Shown: positions 35,702 to 45,777 of the stretch, piece after piece
Layout of the letters: the number at the start of each line of letters is the position of its first letter
Numbering within the stretch: position 1 is the stretch's first letter
From: Spirochaetota bacterium
GTDB lineage: Bacteria > Spirochaetota > UBA4802 > JAFGJZ01
Length of the DNA stretch: 64,000 bases
Direction of reading: 5' to 3'
Assembly (NCBI GenBank): GCA_027858855.1
Contig: JAQIBV010000031.1
Span: 1-64,000, forward strand
Program-made: the position numbers and the translations under genes
Notes under the pieces: model-generated
Told to the model about the DNA's origin: nothing
The model's input: only the letters and a program-made list of their open reading frames with translations
Database searches by the model: none

Positions 35702-36688
35702 ATGAATATATATCTTTTTACTAACAGCAAAAAAATCAGTTCTCTTTTTTCATCTATTTCGAAAGACTACGAGCTTCTTACTCTTAAACGGGATATGTAT
35801 GCTGATACAATCAATTCTGTTAGTCCAGGTGATCTAATCTATTATGACATACAGGGTTTAACCTCCGATCAACTTTTTCAGAATATTTCAGATTTTTTGG
35901 AAAATGTTGCGATCAATTTCGGAATAATAGACCCAACATCCGAAATCGCATCTATTTCTGATCTTTTTTTTGACGGGTTTTGTGATTATATTTCAAAAAA
36001 AGAGCTTATGCATCCTATCAGTCCGGCAAGAATAAAAAAAGTCCGCAATTATAAGAATTTTTGTATAACTAATCAAGTAGTTAAAAACAGTGCTACACCT
36101 ATCAATATCAAGAAACCGGTACAGGGTTGGAAATCAATAAAAGAGGGTGATGAGTACACATTTTATATATTATATTTCCGTCTGGAAGAGGTGGCTTTAC
36201 TTCAGAATCATTTCGGATATGAGTTTACCGAATCAATTATAAATACAGTACGTGATTATCTAAGATCTTTTTTCGGCTCATATGAAGGGAAATTATGGAT
36301 TACTGATGATAATAAGGCTCTGTTTTTGTTTCCCTATAAAGAGAACAATCAGCGGATTATTCTGGGTATTTACCAATTCCTTTTAAATAAAATACTGTTT
36401 TCAGGTGAAATACTTAAATCTCCTGTAATTGTAAACCCCACCTTTATTCTTCATCTTGGCAACATTATGTATTTAAACGAAGAAATGTCTGGTAAGTCTG
36501 TATCAGACGCCTTGAATTTCATATTTCATGCTGCCAACTCGTATGTGACTGCTGGTAATTTTTATGTATCAGATTCTGTATTCAACATCATACCAACTCC
36601 TATTGCCTCATTTTTCAAAAGAGCTCCATCTTTTGAGGGGCATGATTTTATGGTAATGCGCAATCAGATAATCGGTGATAAGGGATAG
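35702..36688 (+). CDS. Uncharacterised protein, receiver-like N-terminus and cyclase/GGDEF-like core
   Basis: 328 residues, soluble. The N-terminal 110 residues resemble a pseudo-receiver (IYLFTNSKKISSLFSSI ... PGDLIYYDIQGL ... FGIIDPTSEI). The C-terminal part is a mixed alpha/beta domain (YTFYILYFRLEEVALLQNHFGYEFTESIINTVRDYLRSFF ... GKLWITDDNKALFLFPY) whose strand order recalls cyclase or GGDEF domains. It lacks metal-binding Asp residues and the GGDEF signature. Translationally coupled to the preceding cyclase-like gene, so the two probably act together. Family assignment is tentative. Confidence 0.6.
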   Translation: MNIYLFTNSKKISSLFSSISKDYELLTLKRDMYADTINSVSPGDLIYYDIQGLTSDQLFQNISDFLENVAINFGIIDPTSEIASISDLFFDGFCDYISKKELMHPISPARIKKVRNYKNFCITNQVVKNSATPINIKKPVQGWKSIKEGDEYTFYILYFRLEEVALLQNHFGYEFTESIINTVRDYLRSFFGSYEGKLWITDDNKALFLFPYKENNQRIILGIYQFLLNKILFSGEILKSPVIVNPTFILHLGNIMYLNEEMSGKSVSDALNFIFHAANSYVTAGNFYVSDSVFNIIPTPIASFFKRAPSFEGHDFMVMRNQIIGDKG

Positions 36689-36706
36689 TACTATAAGTCT
36701 TTTAAA

Positions 36707-36728
36707 AGTACTTTTTCTATGAGGCAAT
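36707..36728 (+). repeat. Island repeat, copy 1 (left boundary)
   Basis: AGTACTTTTT-CTATGAGGCAAT, one T shorter than copy 2. It lies 19 bases after the stop of the 35702 gene and is followed by a hairpin-capable segment (GACAAA ... TTTGTC, 36740-36757). About 70% of positions still match copy 3 over the next 20-25 bases. Confidence 0.6.
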
Positions 36729-36760
36729 GTGGTGCTTCTGACAAAGAAAATTTTGTCTTA

Positions 36761-36807
36761 GGTCGCACCCCCAGGACGCCGAGCAGCAAAGACCTTGATT
36801 TGCGACC
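36761..36807. repeat. GC-rich stem-loop in AT-rich island
   Basis: GGTCGCA and TGCGACC are exact inverted repeats 33 bases apart. The enclosed bases are GC-rich, unlike the surroundings. The element sits directly after repeat copy 1 and may be part of a recombination or regulatory site. The region from here to 37008 holds no other convincing gene. Confidence 0.45.
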
Positions 36808-37008
36808 AGGGCATTACAAAGGATAACATGAGTTCGACAAAACTTTGCAGTACTAAAATAGGTTCATTGTGAATGCGGCACCTGTTTTAAACTTCCTGTT
36901 ATAGGTGTGATTTATAGCCTTCCTGCCATATCAAAAAATTTTTTGTTCTCTTATACAATACTCTTCAGTCAGGGGTACCTGAAAGACAAAAAGAAGGAGT
37001 GAATTATT

Positions 37009-37107
37009 ATGAATGAGCAAGAAGAAAAACCTGAGAAAAAACAAAATTATATAAACCAAAAATCAATTGAAACTGAAAATTCAGAAAATTTAGATCAAAT
37101 GTTGTGA
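37009..37107 (+). CDS. Predicted 32-residue peptide
   Basis: ATG at 37009 is preceded by AAGAAGGAG with a 9-base spacer, one of the better ribosome binding sites in the region. The peptide is highly charged and hydrophilic (MNEQEEKPEKKQNYINQKS ... LDQML) with no membrane segment. It ends at TGA; the frame then stays open for 26 more codons (IYQKNFFCKCE ...) to TAA at 37188. It lies 370 bases upstream of the caspase-like gene on the same strand. It could be a leader-type or substrate peptide (inference) or a gene remnant. Confidence 0.5.
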   Translation: MNEQEEKPEKKQNYINQKSIETENSENLDQML

Positions 37108-37478
37108 ATTTACCAAAAAAATTTTTTCTGTAAATGTGAAATTCTAATATCTTTGCGTAACAAGAACTTCTTTTTACCAGCTATTTAAGATTGTTTCGAA
37201 CTAATTTTTATTAGGGAGTGGGGTGGTTTTTTTCTAACGTGAATTTATGCGAAGTCAAATATTCTATAGGCTATTGACGTTGTTGTGTGTAATATAAGAT
37301 ATTCTTGTTTTAAAGATAAAATCGTTTATTGATGTCAGGTTTATGCGCAACTACGTTAAGACTTCTATCAGTTATATGATGTTGCCGTAAGTTTCTATGA
37401 ATATATTAGTAATTTAATTGACGTTTAAATTTATTGTATTCAAATTATCCAAAATTAAATGAAAATCAAGGGTATTAC
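37108..37478. other. AT-rich non-coding segment between peptide and caspase-like gene
   Basis: No gene is supported here. Directly after the peptide stop codon ATTTAC and GTAAAT flank an A-run/T-run pair (37108-37135), able to form a weak hairpin that could act as terminator. A TTG at 37434 opens the caspase-like frame but lacks a ribosome binding site. Confidence 0.4.
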
Positions 37479-38084
37479 ATGCATAATCCATTCAAAGTAA
37501 AAATTAAAATTATTTGCGATATTGAAACACATGATTGGGCTATTTCTATTAGAACCTTTTTAGAGCTTCTATTATTCCAATGTGATTTATGCTATTTTCA
37601 ATGGAAGTCCCATATCGATGACTATATCAATTGCTCAGAAAACTATGACTTTACAATTTTATGCCTGCATGGTATGCATCAAAAAAATGACAGGTATCAC
37701 TTAATAAGTGTAATTGACACAGACATACAAGATGCTGAGAAAAATAGAATTAGGTATGAATTTAGAAATAAAGAGTATGTAATAAAAAATAAATCTGGAA
37801 TATTGATTTCAATTGGGTGTGGAATTGGCGGAAAAGAGTTCGCCGAAGTAGTGAAAAAAATGGGTTATTCTAATTTTATTGGAAATAAAACTGAATTATT
37901 AACTTTTGGGCAGGTTATTCTTTGGATACAATTATTTTTTGAATTTATTACTCGCCCTAATTTTATTAGTCATTCAACCATTGAATTATTAAATTTAAAT
38001 CAAAACAATATAGTAGATGCCACAAATTACAGTAATTACATTTGTGAAACAAAAAAAAAGCATTTTGCTTTATTTTCCTTTTAA
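37479..38084 (+). CDS. Caspase/CHAT-like predicted cysteine peptidase
   Basis: 201 residues, soluble, no family named with certainty. The order of elements fits a clan CD (caspase/CHAT) core: a first strand (KVKIKIICDI), a long helix, a hydrophobic strand ending in His-Gly (FTILCLHGM, His64), and a later strand ending in Gly-Cys (GILISIGCGIGG, Cys114). After that come a helix (KEFAEVVKKMG) and a strand (NFIG), as in CHAT domains. The dyad would be His64/Cys114. ATG at 37479 has AAGGG upstream; the TTG at 37434 would add 15 residues not matching the fold. AT-rich codon use differs from neighbours. It lies in the repeat-bracketed island with a small peptide gene upstream. Confidence 0.55.
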   Translation: MHNPFKVKIKIICDIETHDWAISIRTFLELLLFQCDLCYFQWKSHIDDYINCSENYDFTILCLHGMHQKNDRYHLISVIDTDIQDAEKNRIRYEFRNKEYVIKNKSGILISIGCGIGGKEFAEVVKKMGYSNFIGNKTELLTFGQVILWIQLFFEFITRPNFISHSTIELLNLNQNNIVDATNYSNYICETKKKHFALFSF

Positions 38085-38284
38085 AAAATAAAATAATGTA
38101 TATTTTTTGACATAATAGACAATATCTTATATGGTTTATCGAAACTGGAGCTGTACGTCCGTTTTAGCGATTAGCGCGGTTTGTGCGAATGCACAAAACC
38201 GTGCCAAAGTACAGTTTGCCATAAATATTCAAAAAGCATTTTCCATTTATCTCTGACGATCTCATTACACTCGATCGCAGATAT

Positions 38285-38310
38285 TTGGAGTACTTTTTTC
38301 TATGAGGCAA
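38285..38310 (+). repeat. Island repeat, copy 2
   Basis: TTGGAGTACTTTTTTCTATG followed by AGGCAA. The 3' 21 bases match copy 1 except for one inserted T. It is tandem with copy 3 at a 36-base period. Confidence 0.7.
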
Positions 38311-38320
38311 CAACATTGGT

Positions 38321-38346
38321 TTGGAGTACCTTTTTACTTGAGGCAA
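38321..38346 (+). repeat. Island repeat, copy 3
   Basis: TTGGAGTACCTTTTTACTTG followed by AGGCAA: 22 of 26 bases match copy 2. Its 3' flank aligns with the 3' flank of copy 1, including a palindromic segment in the equivalent place. Confidence 0.7.
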
Positions 38347-38359
38347 TATGTTACTTCCG

Positions 38360-38373
38360 ATAAGATATCTTAT
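38360..38373. repeat. Perfect 14-bp palindrome
   Basis: ATAAGATATCTTAT reads the same on both strands. It occupies the position, relative to repeat copy 3, that a GACAAA/TTTGTC inverted repeat has relative to copy 1, so pairing is kept although the bases differ. A second palindrome, CATAGATCTATG, follows at 38401-38412. Confidence 0.65.
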
Positions 38374-38687
38374 GTCTCATTAGAAAATTTGGCTTTTGCT
38401 CATAGATCTATGGTTTATACCCCTCTCAGATAATTCCGTTAATAGTGAAGAAATAATCAGCAGTATATCCTTCTATTTTAGCTTTTGCAGAAAAAGAAAA
38501 GACATGTCGTCTCCAAGAGCCTGTCCGTTTCTGAATGTTTTAATATCCGTGAAGAGCTGTTTGTAGATGGACTTTATCGGGGTATTAAGAACTTTGAACA
38601 ATATTTTAAAAAATCTTGAAGCTCCATATTCTACATTGTTAGTATCTGTCTGTTCTTCAATATGTTGTTTTTTTCGGCTTTATTTGA

Positions 38688-45552: not shown

Positions 45553-45777
45553 ATGAAAGGCCGACAAAAAATACCTATGAGCTTTAAAGAGATGCTCGAT
45601 AAATACATATCAATTAAGGGACTCGATATTGTTGTGCATCTTAAGGATGGTAATTCGATAGAACTGAACAAAAACAGGGATCTTGTTGAGGATGAGATAG
45701 TAATGTTCGACAAGAAGAATCTTGAAACCCGTATCTCCCTACCCGATGTTTCATACATCGATCTTTATGCAATGTAG
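45553..45777 (+). CDS. Small conserved-looking protein
   Basis: 74 residues, unknown family. AGGAGGAG precedes the ATG by 3 to 4 bases. The core KGLDIVVHLKDGNSIELNKNRDLVEDEIVMFDKKNLETRISLPDVSYIDL has the rhythm of a small SH3-like or Sm-like beta barrel (inference). Monocistronic, ended by a strong hairpin. Confidence 0.75.
   Translation: MKGRQKIPMSFKEMLDKYISIKGLDIVVHLKDGNSIELNKNRDLVEDEIVMFDKKNLETRISLPDVSYIDLYAM

Follow-up and report, generated by a model that had tools for sequence, protein, structure and literature searches.

The AT-rich interval between a conserved gene pair and malQ in this Spirochaetota genome very probably represents scar tissue at the chromosomal dif site, left by insertion sequences (IS) of the ISLbi1 group that home on dif, with unrelated cargo lying between two scars. 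The window, meaning the whole stretch of DNA analysed, comprises positions 1 to 64,000 of contig JAQIBV010000031.1 (assembly GCA_027858855.1, 63 contigs), and all positions below refer to it unless another contig is named. A preliminary description of the same interval had called it gene-poor and AT-rich, and both properties were borne out (27% GC at 37-38 kb).

The chromosomal dif site

Just past the right-hand repeats of the island lies the sequence ACTTCCGATAA-GATATC-TTATGTCTCAT (38353-38380). The consensus of the lineage, the best score in the contig and the skew peak together identify this site as the chromosomal dif, in the replication terminus. With up to three mismatches, the dif pattern was found in 43 of 98 relatives, mostly as a single match per genome, while matches to the reversed pattern were few. 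The site obtained the top score in the 98-kb contig (39.2, the runner-up reaching 8.1), and the cumulative GC skew, calculated for this 98-kb contig only, has its maximum at 45,717, about 7 kb from dif. The genome encodes a XerD above the curated cut-off (359 versus 330) and a second recombinase that is nearest to XerC yet falls below its cut-off (288 versus 335).

A plasmid-like contig of the same genome (C48; L045, 9258-11420), with partition-type genes recognized by eye, has a second perfect dif site and, ahead of other genes, three more XerD-like half-sites, TATGTCTCATT(A/G). Between dif and malQ, an ORF that is intact in a same-genus genome is reduced in the window to a remnant (Table 1).

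The repeats of the island are insertion sequence ends

Comparison of the window with itself located three copies of a motif of approximately 27 bp (36701-36727, 38284-38310 and 38320-38346). This agrees with the earlier report of a 22-26 bp motif, present once on the left and as a tandem pair on the right. The arrangement exceeds chance: in its 26-bp form, and with no more than three mismatches, the motif matches both right copies, where 100 dinucleotide shuffles predict 0, and a shorter pattern derived from the organism's own genome matches the left copy exactly. The left copy resembles the second of the right copies over 48 nt (71% identity), because a Xer-type site comes after each.

A further copy in the same genome is located beside a decayed DDE transposase (contig C21), and contig C97 of the same-genus genome G001 contains an intact IS encoding a transposase of 439 aa, counted from the first ATG. 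In this intact element, the motif forms inverted tandem pairs at both ends, and TACCT flanks the element as a direct repeat; the motif is therefore the end of an insertion sequence, with GAGGCAATATG as the left tip and GAGGCAAGTCG as the right tip. The right pair of the window is 97% identical over 68 bp to the left end of the C97 element and, once some 60 bp of internal DNA are included, 97% identical over 88 bp to the left end of the C21 element. Both IS ends in the window share one orientation, and no transposase, right IS end or target duplication remains there. The repeats are accordingly broken-off left ends of a dif-seeking IS and not the ends of a cassette.

The transposase of the IS contains an rve core domain, and the G001 protein shares 56% identity with the transposase of ISLbi1 from plasmid p74 of Leptospira biflexa. 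These similarities and the end repeats place in the ISLbi1 group of ISNCY the IS that shares its left end with the window at 97% identity; the window itself holds ends only. Membership of the IS1202 family was considered and dropped: a single pairwise BLASTP against ISSen13, which is not a profile comparison, gave an E-value of 0.21, and the tips, CATATTGCC and CGACTTGCC, are unlike the 5'-TGT / ACA-3' outer ends of that family.

Table 1. Features of the island and its right flank, in window coordinates.
Feature	Positions	Strand	Supporting observations
Further solo left IS end, with one repeat	36701..36731	+	Motif match; sits where similarity to G001 ends
Degenerate dif-like site	36734..36761	+	8/11 matches in each arm; same distance to the IS tip as at dif
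Dispersed repeat of the own genome, with hairpin and degenerate signal-peptide leader	36762..36990	+	Copies on contigs C38, C1, C50, C41, C21 and C5
32-codon ORF	37009..37107	+	Tail of the leader repeat serves as its RBS
Orphan gene, 201 aa, possibly CHAT/caspase-like (His64, Cys114)	37479..38084	+	Motif pattern; no relative
Hairpin past the orphan gene, partly attC-like, cut by the IS remnant (tentative)	38118..38222	+	z -3.6; resembles sites on C41 and C25
ISLbi1-group IS, left end (side of the transposase start), cut at 38224	38224..38350	+	Tandem end repeats; tip GAGGCAATATG; matches the left ends on C21 and C97
Chromosomal dif	38353..38380	+	XerC arm 38353-38363, spacer 38364-38369, XerD arm 38370-38380
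Gene remnant	38527..38661	-	47% in tblastx (45 codons) against the L044 ORF 7667-8947

A fixed position relative to dif

The left tip of the IS remnant at the right of the interval stops 2 bp short of the XerC arm of dif, and this placement recurs in related elements. Within the clade that includes ISLbi1, five copies were identified through their transposase (G001:C97, G000:C21, where G000 is the genome of the window, G136:C2, G201 and ISLbi1 itself), and each of the five has a XerD-like half-site at a distance of exactly 19 nt to its left tip; these copies are recoverable by transposase regardless of dif, and some of them came earlier through end or dif patterns. A XerD-like arm at +19 is also present at both window copies and at G001:C111, while the copy on G001:C22 has no XerD-like site at that position. 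Four alphaproteobacterial relatives carry the same end repeats, yet no XerD-like site was found at +19 in them.

A pattern search identified an IS end at dif in nine of 393 genomes, and the reversed control gave zero; the search had listed ten genomes, of which G124 was left out, as only the dif half matches there. The transposase-start side faces the XerC arm both in G136:C2, which contains a complete IS at a dif-like site, and in G203:C6, where the beginning of an IS lies at dif. The contig starts of G203:C6 and C7 (L110 1-315 and L111 1-156) hold the same IS left end at different dif sites and spacers. Genomes G020 and G033 have a single IS end at dif and no transposase in the flank read, as is the case for the left copy of the window. 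Most relatives lack the IS end motif at dif.

A sister clade associated with promoters

The transposase tree unites the dif-seeking members in one clade, on one side of a branch with support 99/98. The transposase searches also retrieved a sister clade, whose tips end in GCG (ACG in one) and whose promoter-seeking members are set apart from the dif-seeking ones. Its 19 left flanks, several of which are copies within one genome with differing flanks, have a TTGACA-like sequence at +6 to +11 and TATACT at +29 to +34 (T17 A18 T13 A12 C13 T18 of 19). These flanks come from loci L195-L218 of genomes G310, G355, G368, G287, G183, G214, G331, G371, G358, G303 and G216. Members of the sister clade land the same way round, 5 bp upstream of the -35 box in a sigma-70 promoter, which lies at a constant distance.

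The left scar and the synteny breakpoint

The left IS end starts 12 bp past the stop of the gene at 35702-36688, and DNA similarity to G001 ends at this IS end, which marks a synteny breakpoint. In G001, the same gene pair runs on into a GGDEF-type gene (domain named by eye). The two genes to the left had been described as degenerate cyclase genes. Pfam revealed no cyclase domain in them, and both are kept in the same-genus genome at 80% and 72% amino acid identity, so they are not decaying.

Beside the left IS end, the site at 36734-36761 obtained the second-best dif score in the contig, and its right part, TGTCTTAGGTCGCA, is also found in the dispersed repeat. Since the right arm is common to that repeat, our reading of the site as a plain dif copy was softened: possible readings are that dif was copied and has decayed, that the repeat contains a dif-like stretch, or that the two have fused.

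The cargo between the scars

The DNA between the scars is an unrelated, partly foreign patchwork composed of the dispersed repeat, the 32-codon ORF and the orphan gene for a 201-aa protein. Counterparts of the dispersed repeat (L096, L097, L098, L099, L100 and L095) share a leader, MKYLLVLITILLSSTLLFSQ, which encodes a signal peptide at the other loci. With its hairpins and RBS, this leader is joined to differing downstream DNA, often close to contig ends. The GC-rich stem-loop noted previously near 36760 is present, but it barely folds better than shuffled sequences (z -1.5) and belongs to this repeat.

The 32-aa ORF begins just past the leader. That this ORF and the 201-aa ORF exist was confirmed, but the "excellent" ribosome binding site attributed to the former is AAGAAGGAG, the tail of a dispersed, degenerate signal-peptide leader, formed by the leader's lysine codons. 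The peptide has no similarity to any sequence in the libraries and genomes searched, and the ORF is probably not a dedicated peptide gene.

The 201-aa protein has no relative in related genomes, GTDB contigs, IMG/VR, plasmids or phages, and no Pfam, PHROGs, PADLOC or NCBIfam family reached its cut-off. Weak matches at L006, L007 and L009 were rejected as homologues, as they coincide with unrelated genes, mostly in another frame or on the other strand. The preliminary description assigned the protein to the clan CD or CHAT peptidases, and the order and spacing of His64 and Cys114 fit this assignment; the fold and the profile give it no such backing. A single-sequence AlphaFold model was uninformative (pLDDT 39), and in hhalign against CHAT the His and Cys columns were collinear at a score below that of shuffles. 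The His/Cys pattern (a hydrophobic residue and HG, 30-100 residues, a hydrophobic residue followed by Cys-Gly, then G..[VIL]G) was devised after seeing the protein; 9 of 20,000 shuffles also fit it. Among 396 ORFs, it was found in two others, both of which start with TPR-like repeats and are therefore probably TPR-CHAT proteins; the His-to-Cys spacing is 50 residues in the 201-aa protein and 50-52 in these two ORFs of related genomes. Given that the pattern is post hoc and that five of seven CHAT sequences fail it, the match is suggestive only, and the gene is possibly CHAT/caspase-like. Like CHAT/caspase peptidases, the protein has an HG after a hydrophobic stretch and a Cys 50 residues on; unlike them, it has no profile match or TPR part, and its fold is not reliably predicted.

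Origin of the interval

The most probable history starts from an IS that encodes a DDE transposase, has its end repeats in tandem and inserts at a fixed place in front of a dif or dif-like site: 2 bp separate its left tip from the XerC arm, and 19 nt separate it from the XerD arm. The transposase presumably chooses its target through the Xer proteins or their site. Because neither a right end nor a target duplication remains in the window, we infer from the ends alone that there were two separate insertions. Each would have lost its transposase and right end, leaving one solo left end at dif and another 1.62 kb to the left, beside the degenerate dif-like site. The interval would then have grown through repeated IS insertion, loss of IS bodies, and rearrangement and/or XerCD recombination of the two sites. 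In G136:C1 (L102, 5751-7327), an IS end paired with a dif-like site occurs twice, in direct orientation and at a spacing of 1.49 kb; the DNA that these twin modules enclose is other cargo and includes no transposase. This layout, which resembles that of the window, favours a recurring process.

An Xer-mobilized element of the IMEX or dif-module type, in which a circle carrying a dif-like site was integrated at dif by XerCD, is compatible with the IS part of this account, and we regard it as possible though rather unlikely. The two modules are direct repeats 1,619 bp apart, the cargo between them is foreign and orphan, the G136 arrangement encloses different cargo, and the genome has XerD and XerC-like genes. 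Against this, the left site, unlike the perfect right one, matches at only 8/11 positions per arm and has a right arm common to the dispersed repeat, the cargo contains no replication or mobility gene, and no empty or circular form was seen, the G001 assembly breaking at its IS copy. Far less credible is the mobile cassette originally proposed, in which the repeats would be the element's own ends and the contents a caspase-like peptidase with a dedicated small peptide. Its repeat-bracketed layout, its AT-rich, foreign-looking DNA, its link to mobile DNA and the breakpoint in synteny on its left all stand, and the His64/Cys114 pattern speaks for it; but the repeats belong to an IS, of which they are solo left ends, and they occur without the cargo in other genomes. 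The RBS of the peptide stems from the dispersed leader, and no second copy of either gene was found, which leaves the peptidase-plus-peptide system unsupported. It is equally improbable that the motif by dif is a host accessory site for chromosome dimer resolution rather than an IS end. The single copies in G020 and G033, with no transposase nearby in the sequence read, are what such a site would look like, whereas the motif is missing at the dif of most relatives, forms the inverted tandem ends of an intact IS and also occurs away from dif.

For the orphan gene itself, an origin as an integron cassette was considered, with the trailing hairpin as its decayed attC; an IntI-like recombinase encoded elsewhere in this genome would once have moved it. 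We consider this unlikely. The hairpin at 38146-38221 folds better than shuffled sequences (z -3.6), Rfam returned chance matches only, and by eye the hairpin shares a core with sites on C25 and C41. Contig C25 (L164, 150-1944) encodes an IntI-like tyrosine recombinase and a toxin-antitoxin-like gene pair, with an attC-like site on the 3' side. The recombinase exceeds the NF040815 cut-off (230 bits versus 220), but it lies below that of TIGR02249 (221 versus 265), and the RYYYAAC and GTTRRRY boxes are unrecognizable in the window hairpin, for which the likeness of the core was judged by eye. The reports of spirochaete integrons that we found are from Treponema only.

Comparison with known systems

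ISLbi1 resembles the IS whose ends lie in the window in its tandem end repeats and in the placement of its left tip, which a stretch of 19 nt separates from the XerD arm. The site concerned is dif-like (TCTTCCGATAA-TATAGA-TTATGTCGCTT). ISLbi1 is intact on plasmid p74, whereas the window keeps left ends only. The papers that the literature search returned for ISLbi1 are genome papers, and none of them appears to describe dif targeting.

Members of the IS1202 family of the ISAjo2 type are found beside dif, all the same way round, so that the left end faces the XerC arm (PMC10132070). They share with the present elements a DDE transposase, an internal repeat of the end and a 5-bp target duplication (PMC10132070), but ISAjo2-type elements lie 5 bp from the XerC arm, compared with 2 bp here, and the tips here are not TGT/ACA. 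Dif seeking is thus known for the IS1202 family; the transposase group described here has the same habit at a fixed distance of its own, and BLAST detected no similarity between it and the single IS1202 member compared.

In IMEX and in the dif modules of Acinetobacter, too, sites of the Xer type enclose cargo at dif or in its vicinity (PMC5357621, PMC10132070). In contrast to both, the interval has one strongly degenerate site and no mobility gene, and its movement is conjectural; the Acinetobacter modules have inversely oriented sites (PMC10132070), whereas those of the window are direct repeats.

Implications

In a literature search whose coverage of subscription journals was thin, neither the dif rule nor the promoter rule was found described. 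The resolution of an apparent peptidase cassette into IS scars and patchwork cargo calls for caution in annotation.

These findings point to a dif-seeking habit in a phylum for which we found no report of it, alongside a sister clade fixed on promoters. We propose, tentatively and with somewhat less than even confidence, that an ISLbi1-related family has split into clades homing on dif bound by XerCD and on sigma-70 promoters bound by RNA polymerase, and that IS/Xer modules at dif trap orphan cargo. The sister elements make it a testable question how a lone transposase reads an Xer or a polymerase site, and IS at dif may partly explain both the breaks of assemblies at dif and the build-up of cargo in the terminus.
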